Of a DNA stretch of 64,000 bases, positions 47,155 through 57,427 are shown piece by piece (the first letter of the stretch is position 1; the number at the start of each line of letters is the position of its first letter). The position numbers were made by a program, and so were the translations under genes. Location of the stretch: positions 2,184,001-2,248,000 of the forward strand of contig NZ_CP041742.1 in the NCBI RefSeq assembly GCF_007556775.1, in the 5' to 3' direction. This DNA is from Lysobacter lycopersici (GTDB taxonomy: Bacteria > Pseudomonadota > Gammaproteobacteria > Xanthomonadales > Xanthomonadaceae). The notes under the pieces were generated by a model. That model was given only the letters and a program-made list of their open reading frames with translations. It ran no database searches and was not told the origin of the DNA.

Positions 47155-48141
47155 TTACGAATGGGCCATCGCGCGCTTGGCGGCGGCGACGATCTTGTCC
47201 ACGCTCGGCAGGTACTTCATCTCGAGGCGGAACAGCGGGATGTGGGTGTCGTAGCCGGTGACGCGCTCGACCGGCGCGAGCAGGTCGAACAGGCATTCCT
47301 CGGCGACGCGCGCGGCGACTTCGGCACCGAAGCCGGCGGTCTTCGCCGCTTCGTGCACGATCACGCAGCGCCCGGTCTTGGCCACCGATTCGGCGATGGT
47401 GGGGAAGTCGAGCGGCTTGAGCGTGGCGACGTCGATGACTTCGGCGTTGATGCCTTCGGCCGCGAGTTTCTCCGCCGCTTCCAGCGTTTCCTTCACCTGT
47501 GCGCCCCAGGTCACCAGCGTCACGTCGCTGCCGTCGCGCAGCACGTAGCACACGTCCAGCGGCAGCGCTTCACCGTCGTCGGGGACGAGTTCCTTGTACT
47601 GGCGGTAGATGCGCTTGGGTTCCATGTAGATCACCGGATCCGGGTCGCGGATCGCGGCGAGCAGCAGGCCGTAGGCGCGTTGCGGCGAGGAGGGCATCAC
47701 CACGCGCAAGCCGGGTACGTTGGTGAAGATGGATTCGTTCGCTTCGGAATGGTGCTCCGGCGCGCGGATGCCGCCGCCCCACGGCACGCGCAGCACCATC
47801 GGGCAGTGCAGGCGGCCGCGGGTGCGATAGCGCATGCGCGCGGCGTGGCAGACGATGAAGTCCACCATCGGGTACATGAAACCGTCGAACTGCGCTTCGG
47901 CCACCGGCTTCATGCCCTGCGAGGCCATGCCGACGGTGAGCCCCGCGATCGTGGTTTCGTCCAGCGGCGTGTCGAGCACGCGCTGGTCGCCGAACTGCTG
48001 TTGCAGGCCGGCGGTGGCGCGGAACACGCCGCCGTTGACGCCGACGTCCTCGCCGAGCACGACGACCGCATCGTCGTGCTTCATCTCGTAGGCGAGCGCC
48101 TGGGTGATCGCTTCGATGAGCGTGATGGGTTGCGCGCTCAT
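47155..48141 (-). CDS. 2-oxoacid dehydrogenase E1 component, beta subunit
   Basis: 328 residues. Transketolase-like pyrimidine domain with VVVLGEDVG near 26, and C-terminal transketolase domain (VTWGAQVKETLEAAEKL, IDVATLKPLD). With E1 alpha it decarboxylates the 2-oxo acid on thiamine diphosphate. Start at MSAQPITLIEA overlaps the E1 alpha stop by four bases. Substrate is probably a branched-chain 2-oxo acid, since E2 is lipoyl-dependent and the alpha subunit is of the alpha2beta2 type, but pyruvate cannot be excluded. Confidence 0.9.
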   Translation of the reverse strand: MSAQPITLIEAITQALAYEMKHDDAVVVLGEDVGVNGGVFRATAGLQQQFGDQRVLDTPLDETTIAGLTVGMASQGMKPVAEAQFDGFMYPMVDFIVCHAARMRYRTRGRLHCPMVLRVPWGGGIRAPEHHSEANESIFTNVPGLRVVMPSSPQRAYGLLLAAIRDPDPVIYMEPKRIYRQYKELVPDDGEALPLDVCYVLRDGSDVTLVTWGAQVKETLEAAEKLAAEGINAEVIDVATLKPLDFPTIAESVAKTGRCVIVHEAAKTAGFGAEVAARVAEECLFDLLAPVERVTGYDTHIPLFRLEMKYLPSVDKIVAAAKRAMAHS

Positions 48142-49211
48142 GGACGCTTCTCCTGCGCGATCGCGGCATCGCGTTGCGCGAGGACGTCCGCGGGCATGTC
48201 GCCGTACAGGTAGTCGAACATCGCCTCCACCGGCTGCACCGGGGTTTCGAGGTAGGCGTTGATCTCGACATCGACCAATTTCCCGCATTCCTCGACCCAG
48301 GCCTTTTCCTGAGCGTCGTCCCACAGCTTCTGGTCGACGAGGAACTTGCGCAGGCGCAGGAACGGTTCTTTCTCCCACGCCGCCTTCACTTCATCTTCGC
48401 CGCGGTAGCGACGCGCGTCGTCGGCGGTGGTGTGGTCGTGCAGGCGGTAGGTGAGGAATTCGATCACCGTGCCGCCTTCGCCCTTGCGCGCGCGCTCGGT
48501 CGCACGGCGCATCGCCTCGAGCACCGCGACCAGGTCGTTGCCGTCGACCTGCAGGCATGCGAGGCCGCCGGCCAGGCCCTTCTGCGCCAGCGTCTGTGCG
48601 CCGGTCTGCGCCTTGCGCGGCACGCTGATCGCCCAGCCGTTATTGATCACGCACAGCACCAGCGGCAGCGAGTAGGCGCCGGCGGAATTCACCGCGGCGT
48701 AGAAATCGGTCTTGGACGAACCGCCGTCGCCGCAGCAGGACACCGCGATGCGCGGCTGCTTGCGCAGCTTGAACGAGAGCGCCGCACCGGCCGCCATCAG
48801 GCATTGGGTGGAAATCGGCACGCACCAGGGATAGTCGTTGCGCGGCACTTCGAAATCGTTGCCGCGCTCGTCGCCGCCCCAGTACATCAGCACGTCGCGC
48901 GGCTTCACCCCGCGCATGAACTGCGCGCCGTATTCGCGGTAGCTGGGCGCGAACACGTCCTCGGGCTTCATCGACGCGCCGATGCCGACGTGGGTGGCTT
49001 CGTGGCCGAGACAGGCTGCGTAGGTGCCGAGCTTGCCGGTGCGCTGCAGGGCGATCGCCTTGGTGTCGAAGGTACGCACGAACAGCATCTGCTTGAACAG
49101 CGGCAGCAGCGCCTTCGCATCCTTCACCGCCGGCGGCAATTTGCCGGCAAGCGTGCCGTCGGGCTTGAGGTATTGCAGGTATTCGATTTCGAACGTGGCG
49201 GCGGTGGTCAT
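48138..49211 (-). CDS. 2-oxoacid dehydrogenase E1 component, alpha subunit
   Basis: 357 residues, with the thiamine-diphosphate motif GDGGSSKTD near 160 and NGWAIS near 194, and the phosphorylation-loop region YRLHDHTTADDARRYR near 262. First gene of the E1 alpha-E1 beta-E2 operon. The E3 (lipoamide dehydrogenase) subunit is not in the window and may be shared with other complexes. Confidence 0.9.
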   Translation of the reverse strand: MTTAATFEIEYLQYLKPDGTLAGKLPPAVKDAKALLPLFKQMLFVRTFDTKAIALQRTGKLGTYAACLGHEATHVGIGASMKPEDVFAPSYREYGAQFMRGVKPRDVLMYWGGDERGNDFEVPRNDYPWCVPISTQCLMAAGAALSFKLRKQPRIAVSCCGDGGSSKTDFYAAVNSAGAYSLPLVLCVINNGWAISVPRKAQTGAQTLAQKGLAGGLACLQVDGNDLVAVLEAMRRATERARKGEGGTVIEFLTYRLHDHTTADDARRYRGEDEVKAAWEKEPFLRLRKFLVDQKLWDDAQEKAWVEECGKLVDVEINAYLETPVQPVEAMFDYLYGDMPADVLAQRDAAIAQEKRP

Positions 49212-49350: not shown

Positions 49351-52300
49351 TCAGGGTTTCGTGTAATCGGCAGCGTTGTTGTTCAGATTCGGATCTTCGG
49401 CGTCGGACAACACTTCTGCCCTGAAACTCAAGTGGGCCGTTCGAGGCGTGATCACCGAGAACCGGATGGTTTCCGATGTCCCGGCAGGCATCGGATCGAT
49501 GCGGTTGCAGTAGATTTCATAAGTCTGGTTGCGCTTGCAAATCCAGCCCTTGGGGTTGGCGGTTGTCGGGTTGGCGCCGTTGCCGCGAATCATCACGAAC
49601 ACATTCTGGGCCGCGTCCGGGCCTGCATTGTGTACAGGCACACTGAAGTTCGCGACCGGGCCGGAGGCGACGCCGGTGCGTACCAAGCCGACCGAGAGAT
49701 CGGCCTGTGGTGGTGCAGGCGTCACGGTGACCGCGTCCTGGAAGTCGTTGTTCGACGTGTCGGGATCGTCCGTCTCGGACGTCGCAGCCGCCGCAGCCGT
49801 CAGCGTACCCGGCAACGTCGTCGCGACAGCGGAGGCTTGGAGCGTGAACGTCGCCGCTGTATTCGCCGCGAGAGTCGAGGCATTGCATGCGACGCTCGTC
49901 GTGCCACCGGATATTTGAGGCGCGTCGCAGCTCCAACCCTCCGGAGTGATGCTGACCTGCAGGTCGGGCAGCGCCTGATCGAAGGCGAAACCCACACCCG
50001 GATTGGTCGCGTCGTCCGGGCCGCGGTTGATCACCGTCCCGATGACCATGACGGGGCGTCCTACGCTGACCGTCGAGGGCGTTGCTTCGACGTCCATTTC
50101 GAGGTCGGCGTGTTCGACCGTCTGCACGGCGAAATACGCGATCGCCGGGTCGTGGTCGGATAGGCGCGACGGCGAGTTGGCGTCGTTGCGGTTGGTTTCC
50201 GGGAAGTCGGCGTTCATGCGCGCGTGGTCGAGGTCGTACGCGGCCACGTCGGTGCCCAGCGCCTGGTTGATCAGGATGTGGTCCAGCGACTGCGCCTGCC
50301 CGTCGAAGACGTACGAATAGCGCTTGTTCGCCTCCGGCAGGTAATGCAGGTTCATCAGGTCCGGGTTCACCAGGTCGACGCCATCGCCCGGGACCACGGT
50401 CTGGTCGTCCGGGGTCGGCAGGCCGGTGACCACGCCCATCGGATCGACGTAGCCGTCGTTGAAGTCGAAGGCGTTGAAGTCGCCGAGCACGATCAGGTGT
50501 TCGCTCGGATCGGCGGTTTCGCGGGCCTGCACCAGGCCGGCCAGGTATTCGGCCTGCGCCTGGCGCTTCTTGCGCACGCGGTCGCCGGCGGTGGTGAGGC
50601 CGGATACCGTTTCGTCCGAGATGCCGTTCAGCGAACGCTGGTGCACGGCGAACGCGCTGACCGGGAACGAACGACCGTCGGCGTAGTGCACGATCGCGCG
50701 CAGCAGCAGCGGCGGGCGGTCGTTGAGCAGCGAGGCCGAGTTGTCGCTGGGATCGATCCAGGTGGTGTCCTTGCCGTACTGGGTCACGTCGACGACTTCG
50801 ACGCGCGGCGTCGAGCCATCGACCGGCGCGGTCTTGACCAGGAAGCCGACGTCGATGCCGCCGACGTCGTTGCCTTCGTCGAGGTAGGCGGCGTACTGCG
50901 GATCCTCGTCGCCGGCGGCGACCGCATCGCTGTTGATCTTGCTCGCGAGCTGCTGGAGCGTGGACAGGTTCTCCATCTCCATCACCGCAAGCACGTCCGG
51001 CGTATGCAGTTCGTCGCGGATGCCGAGCGAAGCCTTGTTGAGTCGGTTGGCGAACGCGGCCGGGGTCAGCACCGGCTCGCCGATCGCGGGATCGTTGACG
51101 GTGTCGAAGAAGCGCTCGAGGTTGTAGCTGGCGACGGTGAATTCGTCGTCGCTCGGCAGGCGCGCCGCGGTCACGGCTTCGCCGGTGGATGCGACCGTCG
51201 GCGTGGCTTCGGGCAGGATGGTGTAGCGGCGGAAGCCGTAGTCCATCGGCCCGGTCACGCCGGTGACGACCGCACCGGCCGCGAGGTCGAGCTTGGCCCC
51301 GCCGATCGCGTCACTGTCGACTTCCATGGTTTCCGGCGCGGTATCCCAGCGCGGGATCGGCGGAATGGAACCGCTCGGCGCCGGATCGGGCGCCTGGATG
51401 CCCGGGGTGCGGAACGGACGCGGATCGCCGGTGACGGTGGCGTAAAACACGCCGTTGCTGGCGCCGGTGGCGTTCGGCTCGTTGGTGGTGCCGTCGGTCG
51501 GACCGACCACGGTCAGCGAGGCCGCGCTGACGCGCATGCCTTCGACGCGCTCGAGTTGGTCGTAGGCGCCTTCCGGATTCGGGAAGGTGGTGGTCAGCGG
51601 CACCGGCGTCGGCAGGGCGTTGCCGGTGGACAGCAGGGTGACGGTGGCGAAGCCGAGTTCGGTCAGCGGCGGCTGCAGCGGATCCTGCGTCGGCGAGTAC
51701 TCGCTGATGGTCGCGGTGACCTGGACGAGGTTGCCGACCGCGGCTTCGGCCGGCGGCGCGCTGCTGGTGAACACGTACACGCCTTCCGAGGTCATCGGAT
51801 CCGCGTCCGCGTCCGCATCCGCGGCCTGGATGAAGAAGCCGTTGCTCTTGCGGCCGGTGACGATGCCGCGCGTGGTCACGGTCTGGCCGACCAGCGGCGA
51901 GGCGTCGCCATTGCCCTGGATGTCGTGGATCGGAACGACGGTGACGTCGTCGTTGTTGATCGTACCGGTACCGGTGCCGTTGGCGATGATCGCGCCGCCC
52001 GCGTTCGTCACCACCACGCTGAAGGTTTCGTTCGGCTCGGGGGTGGTGTCGCCGTTGACGTCGACGCTGATCGTGACCGAGGTAGTGCCTGCGGCGATCG
52101 TCGCGGTGCCGCTCTTGGCAACGTAATCGTTGTCGGCGGTGGTCGCGGTGCCGTCGACCGTCATGTAGCCGATATTGAGGTCGGAGGTCGGGGCGACGTT
52201 CGAGCTGATGGTGAAGAAGAACGGCTTGGTGCCGCTGTCGCCTTCGGCCGCCGAGGTGCTACCGAACGACACGCTCGGCTGCGCGACCACGCCGGAGGTG

Positions 52301-52983
52301 ACGGAGATGTTGTCGATGCCGACGATCTCGTCGTTGCCCGCGGCATTGGTGGTGATGATGCGCACCTGCAGCAGCGGCTGGTTGTTCGCATCCGCCGGAA
52401 GCACCGCGGAAACGGCGGTGACCTTGCCGGAGAGGCTGGGGCCTTCGGTGGCGTCGGCCACGAAGCCGGCAGGAACGTTGGTGAACGCGCCGCTGTTGCC
52501 GACGCGGTATTGCAGCGCCACCGGCTGCACCGCGTTGTCGGCGGTGCCGTCGAGGTCGCGCAGGTCGTAGGCGACGTTGATGCCGGTCTGGCCGCTGGTA
52601 TCGAGGTTGATCAGCAGGTAGGGCGCATCGGCCGTGCCGGAGCCCTGGAACCCGATCGTCGGGTCGGTGATCTGGAATTCGATCACGTCGCCATTGGAGA
52701 TGCTGGTGCTGGTCTGGTTGGCCAGCACGCTGAGGTCGTTGGCGGCGGCGCTGGTGCCGGTCAGCGTCTGCGGATCGGTGCCGGTCGAGGTCGTGATGTC
52801 CTGCCCGAGGTAGCCCTCGATGCCGGGGACGCCGGACCAGTCGTCGTTGGTCGTGATCAGGCCGGTGTTCGACCAATCCTGCGAGAAGGGCAGGGTTTGC
52901 GCGGTGTTGTTCGCGTTCGCGGCGAAGATCGCCGGCGACAACAGGATGGCGAGCGCCAGGCGGCGCTTGAGGCTGGACAGCAT
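49351..52983 (-). CDS. ExeM/NucH-family extracellular nuclease, catalytically complete copy
   Basis: 1210 residues: signal peptide, an N-terminal region, a Calx-beta domain (about 240-350, SAAEGDSGTK), a lamin-tail/OB-like segment (350-480), an EEP endonuclease/exonuclease/phosphatase domain (about 614-950), and two DUF11-like repeats (956-1075, 1092-1210). EEP catalytic residues are present: MEMENL, VHQRS, LGDFNAFD (near 836) and LSDHDPA (near 944). Likely digests extracellular DNA, e.g. for nutrients or biofilm release, as described for ExeM in Shewanella. A short DADADADAD stretch occurs near 395. Confidence 0.9.
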   Translation of the reverse strand: MLSSLKRRLALAILLSPAIFAANANNTAQTLPFSQDWSNTGLITTNDDWSGVPGIEGYLGQDITTSTGTDPQTLTGTSAAANDLSVLANQTSTSISNGDVIEFQITDPTIGFQGSGTADAPYLLINLDTSGQTGINVAYDLRDLDGTADNAVQPVALQYRVGNSGAFTNVPAGFVADATEGPSLSGKVTAVSAVLPADANNQPLLQVRIITTNAAGNDEIVGIDNISVTSGVVAQPSVSFGSTSAAEGDSGTKPFFFTISSNVAPTSDLNIGYMTVDGTATTADNDYVAKSGTATIAAGTTSVTISVDVNGDTTPEPNETFSVVVTNAGGAIIANGTGTGTINNDDVTVVPIHDIQGNGDASPLVGQTVTTRGIVTGRKSNGFFIQAADADADADPMTSEGVYVFTSSAPPAEAAVGNLVQVTATISEYSPTQDPLQPPLTELGFATVTLLSTGNALPTPVPLTTTFPNPEGAYDQLERVEGMRVSAASLTVVGPTDGTTNEPNATGASNGVFYATVTGDPRPFRTPGIQAPDPAPSGSIPPIPRWDTAPETMEVDSDAIGGAKLDLAAGAVVTGVTGPMDYGFRRYTILPEATPTVASTGEAVTAARLPSDDEFTVASYNLERFFDTVNDPAIGEPVLTPAAFANRLNKASLGIRDELHTPDVLAVMEMENLSTLQQLASKINSDAVAAGDEDPQYAAYLDEGNDVGGIDVGFLVKTAPVDGSTPRVEVVDVTQYGKDTTWIDPSDNSASLLNDRPPLLLRAIVHYADGRSFPVSAFAVHQRSLNGISDETVSGLTTAGDRVRKKRQAQAEYLAGLVQARETADPSEHLIVLGDFNAFDFNDGYVDPMGVVTGLPTPDDQTVVPGDGVDLVNPDLMNLHYLPEANKRYSYVFDGQAQSLDHILINQALGTDVAAYDLDHARMNADFPETNRNDANSPSRLSDHDPAIAYFAVQTVEHADLEMDVEATPSTVSVGRPVMVIGTVINRGPDDATNPGVGFAFDQALPDLQVSITPEGWSCDAPQISGGTTSVACNASTLAANTAATFTLQASAVATTLPGTLTAAAAATSETDDPDTSNNDFQDAVTVTPAPPQADLSVGLVRTGVASGPVANFSVPVHNAGPDAAQNVFVMIRGNGANPTTANPKGWICKRNQTYEIYCNRIDPMPAGTSETIRFSVITPRTAHLSFRAEVLSDAEDPNLNNNAADYTKP

Positions 52984-53158
52984 GAGTTTTCCCCGAATCG
53001 GCGCGCTCCGGCGCCATGGCCCGATTGTGCCCCAAACCGATGTCGGCGGCATGACGCCAGATCCACGACGAGCCCTCGGCTCGATCCGGGGCTTGTCGGC
53101 AGGCGATCGGGGAAGGCGCCTGCCCCCGAACCGCGCCGTAACGGCGCGGTGGCGAGGC

Positions 53159-56100
53159 TCAGGGCGTGACGTTCACCGACGTCGAGGCCTGGTTGTTCCC
53201 GGGTACCGGGTCGACGTTCGCCGAATCGGCCGTGATCGCGAGATGCACCTGGCCGCCTGCCTTGCCGGCGGGCGCGCTCGCGGTCACGGTGAACGTCGCG
53301 GTGCCGCCCGAACCGACCTGCGAAAAGACGCAGGCTATGGTCGTGGACCCCGCCGCAATTTGCGGAACCTCGCAGTCCTGCAGCGGGTCACTCGACGTGA
53401 TCGCCAGGTCCGGGAGTTCGGCGTCGAAGGCGAACCCCGCGCCGACGAAGGACGCGGTATCGGGCCCGAGGTTGCGCACCTTGGCGGTGAACGTCATCGC
53501 CTGCCCGGCCTTCACCGCGGCCGGCGTCGCGGTCACGCTCGCCGACAAGTCCGCGAAGGAATCCGGGGTGACGTACAGCACCACCGGGTCGTGCGACGAC
53601 ACCCGCAGCGCGGTCGTGTCGTTGCGGCGGGTCTCGGGGAAATCCGCGTCGATGCGCGCGTAGTCCATGCGCGTGCCGCCGCCGGCCGAGAGCGCCGCGT
53701 TGATCAGGATGTGGTCGGTCTGCTGTCGCGATCCGCGGTCGAGGTCGTTGTAGCCCTCGGTGCTGCCGAGGGGCGTGTACAAGGTCGGGTTCAAGATGTG
53801 AGCGCCATCGTTCGGGACCGCCGTCCTTTCGTCGATCGGGGCCTCGTGGAAGACGGCGAGGACATCGACGTAGCCGTCGTTCACCGCCGGCGCGTCGAAA
53901 TCGCCGAGCAGCACGATCTTCCGCGTCGGATCGGCGACCTGCAATTGCTGGATGTAGTTGGCGATGTACTGCACCTGCTGCAGGCGCTTCTGCCGGACCC
54001 TGTCGCCGAGCGTGGTCAGGCCCGACGCGGCTTCGCTGGCGATGTCCTCGCGGTCGCGCAGCTGGGCATTGATGACCGTCAGCGGATACCCGCTTCCGTC
54101 GATGTCGACGGTGGCATCGAGCATGAGCGGGGGGCGGTCGAACAACACCGCGTTGTGCCCCAACCCCGGGTCGAAGAAGGTCGCCGATTTGCCGATCTGG
54201 ACGACCGAACGGACTTGCACGCGCGGACGGCCGCTCGCGCCGGCCGCGGTCTTGACCAGCAGCGCGACATCGAGCCCGTCCGTGGCGCTGCCCTCGAGCA
54301 GGTACGGCTTGTACGCCGGGTTCGGATGGCCCGCCGCCACTTCGTCGTTGTTGATCTTGACCCCGATCGAGAACAGCGCGGCCGAGTTCTCGACATCCTG
54401 CAAGCCGAGGATGTCCGGCAGGTGCAGCGCGTTGCGCACGGCGAGCGAGAGCTTGGCGACGCGTGCATTGAATGCGTCGATCGTGAGCACGGGTTCGTCG
54501 CGGCCCGGGTCGTTGGCCGGGTCGTAGAAGCGATCCAGGTTGAAGCTCGCGACGGTGAAGCCATTGGCGGGCGGGTTCGGCGCGTACTTCAGCGGGGACA
54601 CGGACGTCATCGTGATCGGCGCCGTCGGGTCGCGCAGCAGGGTGTAGCGACGGTTGCGGTAATCGAGGACGCCCTGCAGGCCGGTGACCGTCGTGCCCGT
54701 CATCAGGTTGAGTTGCGATCCGCCCTGGGCATCGCTGTCGACGGCGATGACCTCGGGATTGCCGTCCCAGATCGGCAATGGCAGCGATTCGCTGCCGGAC
54801 GGGTTCGGGTCGGGCTGTTCGATGCCCTGCTCGCGGTAAGGGATTCCACGCGACGGATCGACCTTGGTCGCGAAGAAGACGCCGTTGCTCGCGGCGGTGC
54901 TGGTGCGCTCGGTCACCACGCCCTGGGTCGGGCCGGTGACGACCACCGTTCCGGGCGTGACGCGCATCCCCTCGTAGGGTTCGAGCTGCAGGTACGCCGT
55001 CCAGTTCGTGTCGGTGGGATCGATCTGCAATGCCACCGGCGCAGGCAGCGGGTTGCCGCTGCTGACGACGGTGATCGCGGGAGAGGCGCCGAGCTGGGTG
55101 CGTTCCGGGGAGCCGGGATCATCCGGCGGCACGAAGGACTGCACGGTCCCGGTGACGACGACGCGGTTGCCGACCGCGGCGCTCGAAGGCGGCGCGCCGC
55201 CGGTGTCGACGAAAATGCCGCTCGAGGATTGCCAGAATCCGTCGTCTTGTCCGTCCGGCGTCTGCATGAAGAAGCCGTTTTCCACGCGCGCCGTGACCAC
55301 GCCGCCAACGGGCAGGCGCTGCCCGATGTGTTGCGGCCCGTCGCCGAACATATCCCGCCACTGGATTTCGTCGATCAGGTAGGTTTTCGGATCGTCGTTG
55401 CGGATGGTCAGCTTGACGCTCTGATTCGCGGTGCCCGGGGTCGCGCCCGTTGCGCTCACCACGTCGATGAGCGCGTACTCGTCCGCTTCGTAGTCCTGGT
55501 CGCCATAGACCGTAAAGTTGAGCGGGGCGGACGTCTTGCCCGCGGGGATCGTGCCTTGCAACGTTCCGGAAGGTGCGTAATCGACGCCGGATTTCGCGCT
55601 TCCGCCGTATACCTTGACGCTGAACGCCACGCCGCCGGCGGGCGCGGCCTTGTTGAGTTTCGCGAGCGCGACCGCGGTCTTGGTCCCGCTGTTGCCCTCG
55701 TCCACCGAGACTCCCTGCAACGAGATGACGGGCGGGGGCTCGAAGTCGGAGGTCGCACCGACATGCACGTTGTCGACCGCCAGGCCATCGTCGTTGCCCG
55801 CGGCATCGAAGTCCTTCCAGCGCAGCCAGAACGTCGCGCCCGCGGGAATGGTGATGCCAGCCGGAAGATCCGCGCCAATGCTCAGCTGGTACTGGGGCAG
55901 GCTGCCGTTGATCCGCCCGACCGGCGCACCGGTCGCGATCGTGTTCACATCCAACGCGTCGACATCGGTCCAGTGCCCGGTCTGCAGCGACGTCGCGTCC
56001 GTGCTGAACTGGAAGTCGAGGCGGTCGCTGCGACCGGTCGCGCCGACATGCCATTGCTGGCCACCGTACCGGATCCAGATCGATGTCAGGTTCCCGCCGG

Positions 56101-56443
56101 TGGCGTTCTTCAGGCAGACGCCGAACATCGGCGCCATCGCGGCGCTGGCGACGCTGCCGAGCGCGCGCCATGACGACCCCGCGGTGCCATAACTGTAGAG
56201 CCCGGCTCCGCCATGGGAGCCATCGTCCGCGATCATCAACCCATCGCCGTCGTAGATGGACCAGCCCACGGGGACTTGCGACGAAGATCCGCTGGACGCC
56301 AGTGAATCGAAGTTCTGGTCGTAGGCGATGAAAGTCGACCAGGGGATCTCGGCGCAACCGGCGTGCGCCGTGCCCGCGAAGCACAAAGCCGCAAGCAACG
56401 GCAACACCAAACCGCCGCGCATCGACGCGAAGTAAGCCCCCAT
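53159..56443 (-). CDS. ExeM/NucH-family paralogue with altered EEP active site
   Basis: 1094 residues with the same plan: signal peptide (MRGGLVLPLLAALCFAGTAHA), Calx-beta domain (about 240-350), OB-like part, EEP domain (about 626-955) and one DUF11 domain (961-1094). Several catalytic positions differ from its neighbour: GDFN is GDFD, SDHDP is SSHDP, and VHQRS is NAQLRD. The Glu in VENS is kept. It may be an inactive binding protein or have changed chemistry. It is in tandem with the intact copy; 175 bp separate them. The start is either 56443 or the ATG seven codons in. Confidence 0.85.
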   Translation of the reverse strand: MGAYFASMRGGLVLPLLAALCFAGTAHAGCAEIPWSTFIAYDQNFDSLASSGSSSQVPVGWSIYDGDGLMIADDGSHGGAGLYSYGTAGSSWRALGSVASAAMAPMFGVCLKNATGGNLTSIWIRYGGQQWHVGATGRSDRLDFQFSTDATSLQTGHWTDVDALDVNTIATGAPVGRINGSLPQYQLSIGADLPAGITIPAGATFWLRWKDFDAAGNDDGLAVDNVHVGATSDFEPPPVISLQGVSVDEGNSGTKTAVALAKLNKAAPAGGVAFSVKVYGGSAKSGVDYAPSGTLQGTIPAGKTSAPLNFTVYGDQDYEADEYALIDVVSATGATPGTANQSVKLTIRNDDPKTYLIDEIQWRDMFGDGPQHIGQRLPVGGVVTARVENGFFMQTPDGQDDGFWQSSSGIFVDTGGAPPSSAAVGNRVVVTGTVQSFVPPDDPGSPERTQLGASPAITVVSSGNPLPAPVALQIDPTDTNWTAYLQLEPYEGMRVTPGTVVVTGPTQGVVTERTSTAASNGVFFATKVDPSRGIPYREQGIEQPDPNPSGSESLPLPIWDGNPEVIAVDSDAQGGSQLNLMTGTTVTGLQGVLDYRNRRYTLLRDPTAPITMTSVSPLKYAPNPPANGFTVASFNLDRFYDPANDPGRDEPVLTIDAFNARVAKLSLAVRNALHLPDILGLQDVENSAALFSIGVKINNDEVAAGHPNPAYKPYLLEGSATDGLDVALLVKTAAGASGRPRVQVRSVVQIGKSATFFDPGLGHNAVLFDRPPLMLDATVDIDGSGYPLTVINAQLRDREDIASEAASGLTTLGDRVRQKRLQQVQYIANYIQQLQVADPTRKIVLLGDFDAPAVNDGYVDVLAVFHEAPIDERTAVPNDGAHILNPTLYTPLGSTEGYNDLDRGSRQQTDHILINAALSAGGGTRMDYARIDADFPETRRNDTTALRVSSHDPVVLYVTPDSFADLSASVTATPAAVKAGQAMTFTAKVRNLGPDTASFVGAGFAFDAELPDLAITSSDPLQDCEVPQIAAGSTTIACVFSQVGSGGTATFTVTASAPAGKAGGQVHLAITADSANVDPVPGNNQASTSVNVTP

Positions 56444-56557
56444 GTCCCGCCCCCGATTCCCCGTTCCCCGCGCGAATCCTAGCGCGCCGGACCATGGCCG
56501 CAAGTGACGGGGAATCCGCGCAGGGACGCCGCGGCGGGCCCATGCGAGAATCCGGGC

Positions 56558-57427
56558 ATGGCGATAGACGACAACCAGCGCCCGCTCGAGGCGGAGATCC
56601 ACACCGACCTGGCCGGTCGCATGACCTACGCCGGCTACCTGCAACTGGACCGGCTGCTGTCCGCGCAGCAGCCGCTGTCGAACCCGCCGCATCACGACGA
56701 ACTCCTGTTCATCATCCAGCACCAGGTCTCGGAGCTGTGGCTGAAGCTGCTGGTGCACGAGCTGGGCGCGGCGATCGAACACCTGCGCCGCGACGAACTC
56801 GACGCCTGCCAGAAGATCTTCGCGCGCTGCAAGCAGGTGATCGCGCAGCTGACCGCGATGTGGTCGGTGCTGGAAACGCTCACGCCCTCCGAATACATGG
56901 AATTCCGCCACATCCTCGGGCCGTCGTCGGGATTCCAGTCGCTGCAGTACCGCGTCATCGAATTCCAGCTAGGCAACAAGAACGCCGGGATGCTGAAGGT
57001 GTTCGCGCACGACCCGCAGGCGCAGGCGCGGTTGCGCGAAGCGCTGGAATCGCCGTCGCTGTACGACGAGGCGCTGGCCTACCTCGCGCGCCGCGGCCAC
57101 GCGATTCCGCAGCGCCACCTGCAGCGCGATTGGTCGCAGCCGCACGTCTCGGATCCGGAATTGCTGCCGGCGTTCGAGCGCATCTACGAGGACACCGATG
57201 CGCACTGGGCCGAGTACCACCTGTGCGAGGACCTGGTCGACCTCGAATCGCAATTCCAGCTCTGGCGCTTCCGCCACATGCGCACGGTGCTGCGCATCAT
57301 CGGTTTCAAGCCCGGCACCGGCGGTTCCAGCGGCGTGGGTTTCCTCAAGCAGGCGCTGGACCTGACCTTTTTCCCGGAGCTGTTCGAAGTGCGAACGGCC
57401 ATCGGCGTACCGAACGCCGCCTACTGA
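56558..57427 (+). CDS. kynA: Tryptophan 2,3-dioxygenase
   Basis: Heme enzyme that opens the indole ring of tryptophan, the first step of the kynurenine pathway. 289 residues, all-alpha, with [15 protein letters not shown] near 60, heme-proximal His region RFRHMRTV near 240, substrate loop [12 protein letters not shown] near 255, and the terminal [10 protein letters not shown]. Start ATG at 56558. Downstream is a peptide transporter, not other kyn genes. Confidence 0.95.

Follow-up and report, generated by a model that had tools for sequence, protein, structure and literature searches.

ExeM of Shewanella oneidensis (NF033681; PMC6085458) is secreted and has an EEP domain that is preceded by an OB-like region; its activity depends on the OB-like region, which may contribute to substrate interaction. 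A comparable two-part plan, a region before the EEP domain and the EEP domain itself, is found in the solved EEP protein with the PDB entries 9sf8 and 9sf9, whose canonical motifs, so far as the alignment shows them (GDFN, SDHDP and the His), are intact. Pseudoenzymes are a known kind of protein, and the repeated evolution of pseudonucleases has already been described for a fungal RNase family: in the Ssd1-type pseudonucleases (Dis3L2/RNase II) active-site residues were lost at least four times, sometimes following a gene duplication, while RNA binding was retained (PMC8097288). None of the open-licence papers searched describes a bacterial pseudonuclease that is secreted and kept beside an active twin.

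Here we analyzed two adjacent paralogous genes of Lysobacter lycopersici. They are located in the window, that is the whole stretch of 64,000 nucleotides under study, and all coordinates are window positions. The gene at 53159-56443 (minus strand) is called Right and the neighboring gene at 49351-52983 (minus strand) is called Left (Table 1). Both resemble ExeM in that they are predicted to be secreted and have an OB-like region in front of the EEP domain, and Left keeps all catalytic residues. They differ from it by Calx-beta and DUF11 domains, whereas ExeM is described in the excerpts as active with an LTD domain, and the same excerpts mention no inactive partner (PMC6085458). Right has the two-part plan of 9sf8/9sf9 but not its canonical motifs. 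The likeness between the Ssd1-type proteins and the altered copies considered below lies in the repeated loss of the active site and in a possible retention as nucleic-acid binders (PMC8097288); the Ssd1-type proteins are, however, eukaryotic, intracellular and directed at RNA, and their fold is unrelated to that of Right.

Table 1. Features of the tandem locus and its flanks (window positions; residue numbers refer to the respective protein).
Feature	Position	Strand	Remarks
Right, candidate secreted EEP-fold pseudonuclease	53159..56443	-	1094 aa, ATG to TGA
Right, predicted Sec signal peptide	56360..56443	-	MGAYFASMRGGLVLPLLAALCFAGTAHA; read from the sequence, signal-like start by script
Right, N-terminal module	55748..56365	-	aa 27-232; common to many relatives, absent from Left
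Right, Calx-beta-like beta-sandwich	55394..55735	-	aa 237-350; inferred from alignment with the Calx-beta match of Left and predicted strands
Right, OB-fold-containing region	54584..55390	-	aa 352-620; corresponds to the ExeM region before EEP; ExeM_NucH model match 379-857, family profile match to 9sf8
Right, EEP domain	53564..54568	-	aa 626-960; AlphaFold pLDDT mostly >90, VIA-align Z ~23
Right, C-terminal DUF11/CARDB domain	53174..53551	-	Pfam PF01345, 45.7 bits
Asp683 for metal-binding Glu (DNase I E39)	54395..54397	-	Left E692; LQDVEN vs VMEMEN
Gln794 for catalytic His (DNase I H134)	54062..54064	-	Left H804; NAQLRD vs VHQRS
Asp850 for Asn of GDFN (DNase I N170)	53894..53896	-	Left N860; GDFD vs GDFN
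Ser950 for Asp of SDHDP (DNase I D251)	53594..53596	-	Left D966; SSHDP vs SDHDP
Intergenic gap	52984..53158	-	175 bp; holds a GC-rich palindrome (CCGCGCCGTTACGGCGCGG) with no T run
Left, canonical partner, predicted secreted ExeM-like EEP nuclease	49351..52983	-	Calx-beta, OB region, two DUF11/CARDB domains
Left, N-terminal module	52303..52911	-	
Left, EEP domain	50128..51141	-	
Flanking gene, tryptophan 2,3-dioxygenase-like	56504..57427	+	named from sequence, with a probable start around 56561; syntenic in almost all relatives
Flanking gene, 2-oxoacid dehydrogenase E1 component	48138..49211	-	PF00676; synteny

Organization of the two genes

Left adjoins Right directly downstream on the same strand. 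BLASTP aligned ~890 residues of the two proteins (Right 205-1094 to Left 228-1112) with 42% identity over 902 columns. The earlier note had ascribed the same domain plan to both copies, and this proved correct from the Calx-beta-like domain onward; the first ~230 amino acids, however, are unrelated modules of different families, and a second C-terminal DUF11/CARDB domain is present in Left only. In the family set the N-terminal module of Right occurs in 27 rows and that of Left in 6 (the query itself included). This patchy spread of unrelated modules among the relatives suggests module swapping at the nuclease locus.

Against the NF033681 (ExeM/NucH) model Right and Left scored 94.4 and 143.8 bits, both below the curated cut-off of 300. 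The architecture of ExeM/NucH, a signal-like start and an OB-like region that precedes the EEP domain, is recognizable in Right from a partial model match and the alignment with 9sf8, to which the family profile matched with E = 2e-37. The longest ORF of Left spans 49351-53052; a likelier start is the ATG at 52983, after GGGGAAAACTC, which yields a signal peptide.

The absence of a frameshift in Right, as claimed in the earlier note, was borne out: its 1094 codons contain no stop, whereas ~7 had already arisen by 80% identity in a neutral simulation, and the GC3 value of 0.88 is as in Left and the neighboring genes. With neither stop nor frameshift and with a normal GC3, a sequencing error or a pseudogene was rejected as an account of Right. 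The EEP domain of Right has a net charge of -14 and every domain is acidic overall, so that a positive sign of DNA binding is absent; charge, when examined as a sign of DNA binding, gave no clear signal. The palindrome in the intergenic gap (53120-53160) is located right behind the stop codon of Right and is terminator-like except for the missing T run.

Catalytic residues and predicted fold of Right

The catalytic signature of Right is N-D-Q-D-D-D-S-H, compared to N-E-H-D-N-D-D-H in canonical copies. The set that goes with catalytic competence in EEP nucleases (N, E, H, D-x-N, D, D-H) thus appears in Right as N, D, Q, D-x-D, D, S-H, with four of the eight residues changed and four kept (N635, D848, D910 and H951); in Left all eight are present. 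In DNase I numbering, which we take from the position of the motifs and general knowledge of the fold, the residues of Right correspond to N7, D39, Q134, D168, D170, D212, S251 and H252. The earlier note had listed GDFD for GDFN, SSHDP for SDHDP and NAQLRD for VHQRS and had concluded that three EEP positions were lost together. These replacements are exact and identical in three separate alignments, but a fourth one, E692 of Left to D683 of Right, had been missed. Because BLASTP and two MAFFT modes concur, an alignment error was ruled out as the origin of the unusual residues.

Outside the EEP domain Right keeps 39 of 42 near-invariant positions, and within it 51 of 67 non-catalytic ones. When catalytic positions were compared with the other conserved ones of the EEP domain by a Fisher test, the difference was not significant for Right alone (p = 0.2) but was so for most of the altered copies from Lysobacter. 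Since four catalytic residues remain and two of the changes are conservative (E to D and N to D), a residual or altered activity of Right is possible.

The AlphaFold model of Right has a mean pLDDT of 87.8 (mostly >90 in the EEP domain), and its residues 616-962 match TDP2, PDE12, EEPD1 and Mth212 at Z ~23 (VIA-align), as expected for a member of the EEP superfamily; nocturnin is also among the best structural matches. An altered copy of L. enzymogenes, which retains only one of the eight catalytic residues, likewise gave a confident model (mean pLDDT 86.9, pTM 0.87), its fold being read from this model and secondary structure only. In both cases AlphaFold favors the EEP fold, because the input alignments are rich in active copies. 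With the predicted fold kept and catalytic residues replaced, Right classifies as a putative pseudoenzyme.

Altered copies in related genomes and their origin

A family search with Right as query gave matches in 169 of 297 genomes of the Lysobacteraceae (Xanthomonadaceae), and 80 named loci from public genomes were added to the family set. Where the flanking sequence suffices, almost all members have the same gene order: tryptophan dioxygenase, the nuclease gene or genes, and the E1 and E2 genes of a 2-oxoacid dehydrogenase. The nuclease gene is usually single. A single conserved locus between the tryptophan dioxygenase and E1 genes points to duplication in place, and given the conserved synteny Right is unlikely to be a mobile or horizontally gained gene.

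All eight catalytic residues are present in 94 of 113 aligned copies. The single-copy ORFs are canonical without exception (79 of 79). The pattern scan behind the 80 named loci favors copies with GDF[ND]A[FP] and is by itself blind to heavily altered single copies. The family search is free of this bias, and the best copies from 80 more regions of the family, which overlap with the first set, were all canonical as well. Among the copies examined, every altered one stands in tandem with a canonical copy. Two or three tandem copies occur in sixteen genomes, and 15 of these (the window genome, 12 of the Lysobacter group and two of another genus) have just one canonical copy, the remaining ones being altered. 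Four of the 12 Lysobacter-group genomes contain a second altered copy downstream. Altered copies are mostly located upstream of the active one, Lysobacter clade B being the exception, and have signal peptides and gaps of 95-400 bp. No adjacent pair was detected outside the Lysobacteraceae in a class sample of 369 genomes; an order sample gave one (G805), which is probably Rudaea.

The tandem copies from Lysobacter (L. enzymogenes, L. antibioticus and the loci L134 and L085, among others) belong to the same locus and family and resemble Right in that an altered copy lies beside a canonical one. They differ from it in that the loss is mostly heavier (1-4 of eight residues kept), in that two altered copies sometimes occur, and they may be of separate origin. 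In clade A only one or two of the eight residues are kept, with Gly or Lys/Arg at metal positions. The altered copies in the two genomes of the other genus keep six and four of the eight.

The sixteenth genome, Rudaea cellulosilytica, has one canonical and one divergent copy with seven of the eight residues (L113:14690-18445; branch 1.8-1.9). As its motifs are intact except for a change of His to Tyr, we dropped it from the count of altered copies; it is probably active and possibly a second enzyme of different specificity.

Trees were calculated with the catalytic columns masked. A single clade of all altered copies was rejected by the AU test (p = 8e-7). By parsimony, switches between the canonical and the altered state number at least six on the careful tree (Rudaea included) and four on the quick tree, in which Rudaea was left out and more columns were masked. 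These trees indicate that altered copies arose at least four times. For Right itself the AU test allowed every placement examined: p was 0.44 for a union with Left, 0.28 for one with clade A, 0.26 for one with both clades and 0.35 for one with clade B. Hence Right and Lysobacter clade A or B could also go back to one old pseudonuclease lineage that was lost in other genomes, instead of Right stemming from a separate duplication in its own genus. Three replacements that Right has in common with clade B (E692D, I733L and F862P in Left numbering) would fit such a descent, since they are absent from the 94 active copies, in which position 733 is 91 times Ile, twice Gln and once Val; convergence or common descent would account for them alike. 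In the best trees, however, Right stands apart from both clades, a union with Left is equally allowed, and Right lies upstream of its partner, whereas the clade B copies lie downstream. We consider the old lineage a serious possibility, but the less probable origin.

As no near orthologue of Right was found in the collections searched, the selection analysis was confined to Lysobacter. Altered pairs gave dN/dS values of 0.25-0.57 for the whole gene and 0.23-0.35 for the EEP domain, and active partners 0.10-0.58 and 0.07-0.42; because these are simple NG86 estimates from GC-rich genomes, only the comparison of altered with active copies is meaningful. By this comparison the altered EEP domains in Lysobacter are under purifying selection like the active ones. 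In clade A, with members of ~49% identity, a switch followed by fixation affected only three conserved EEP positions, of which two are catalytic (N644D and E692G), and in clade B the EEP domain is the best conserved one (68% compared to 45% for the OB region and 37% for DUF11). Retention of the Lysobacter copies by selection is well supported by these sequence data. The evidence for Right is indirect and consists of the open frame, the GC3 value, the retained signal peptide and the retained structural positions. The proposal of the earlier note, selection for a non-nuclease role instead of decay, is therefore supported in part, mainly by the repeatedly altered copies of relatives, which always lie beside an intact one and evolve under purifying selection in Lysobacter, and in an indirect form for Right.

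Possible function of the altered copy

That the same pair of working and altered copy evolved several times at one spot suggests that the altered copy does a job of its own. We favor, with a probability of roughly 0.55, the reading that Right is a secreted pseudonuclease which is kept by selection as a partner of the active Left that does not cut but binds DNA or enters a complex with the enzyme. Right would be a tandem-duplicate paralogue of Left whose cutting ability has been lost in good part or entirely; it would be exported, act outside the cell alongside Left and bind DNA, or Left itself, by its retained OB and EEP folds, and in this way tune how and where extracellular DNA is degraded. 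By analogy with ExeM, an OB region and an EEP groove without the catalytic set could hold or shield extracellular DNA, or could recruit or compete with the active enzyme. For Right we infer loss of activity, selection on its own copy, binding of DNA or a partner and a modulating role.

The features used to characterize Right also bear on three other explanations. Right could still bind a metal and hydrolyze another phosphoester or a special DNA end; the four remaining catalytic residues, the conservative acids D683 and D850 as substitutes and the varied substrates of EEP folds, with TDP2, nocturnin and PDE12 among the matches, are compatible with such a shift. Gln for His-134 and Ser for Asp-251 are non-conservative exchanges, however, and Gly or Lys/Arg at metal positions in clade A is hard to square with catalysis (the function of these copies may differ from that of Right), and we regard a substrate-shifted enzyme as unlikely. 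Even less probable is a decaying, functionless duplicate that is open by chance or of recent origin. Right does evolve faster than Left (end branch 0.95 compared to 0.32 in the careful tree), has lost 16 of the 67 other conserved EEP positions, and no orthologue from the collections searched proves selection on it; but the frame has stayed intact after deep divergence with a GC3 as in the neighbors, conservation outside the EEP domain is nearly complete at the positions counted above, and purifying selection acts on comparable altered copies in other genomes.

The third explanation is a narrower form of the favored one and overlaps with it: Right might be a dedicated inhibitor or chaperone of Left, either dominant-negative or a secretion partner, and not a DNA binder. 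The restriction of altered copies to the neighborhood of an active one, together with their mostly upstream position, signal peptides and spacing, would agree with this role. Single-copy relatives do without an altered partner, however, and we judge it rather unlikely, though somewhat less so than a shift in substrate.

If the reading of Right as a non-cutting partner is extended to the family, the Lysobacteraceae may have a two-component extracellular DNA system in which a secreted pseudonuclease directs, limits or stabilizes the active nuclease, and which would have evolved independently several times at one locus because a non-cutting partner that binds DNA or the enzyme is advantageous. 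This extension is tentative, and we rate its chances as somewhat less than even. The repeated origin in place amounts to a natural replicate, with culturable Lysobacter genomes that do or do not have the altered partner, and such strains could show whether a non-cutting copy shapes the turnover of extracellular DNA, the biofilm matrix or nutrient capture.

Two further peculiarities were observed among the altered copies. In three separate groups Arg takes the place of the catalytic His in SDHDP (SDRDP, SNRDP or SLRDP), as if Arg were favored at this position; the copies concerned are L092:9329-12877, L053:8108-11470, L129:12813-16322 and L069:6188-9463 in clade B, and L061:8984-13489 and L062:11565-16166 outside of it. 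Several copies of clade A, including L055:3028-6768, L060:1828-5529, L085:3173-6982 and L104:5254-9060, have ~120 extra residues in the Calx-beta region (~235 compared to 110-120 aa).
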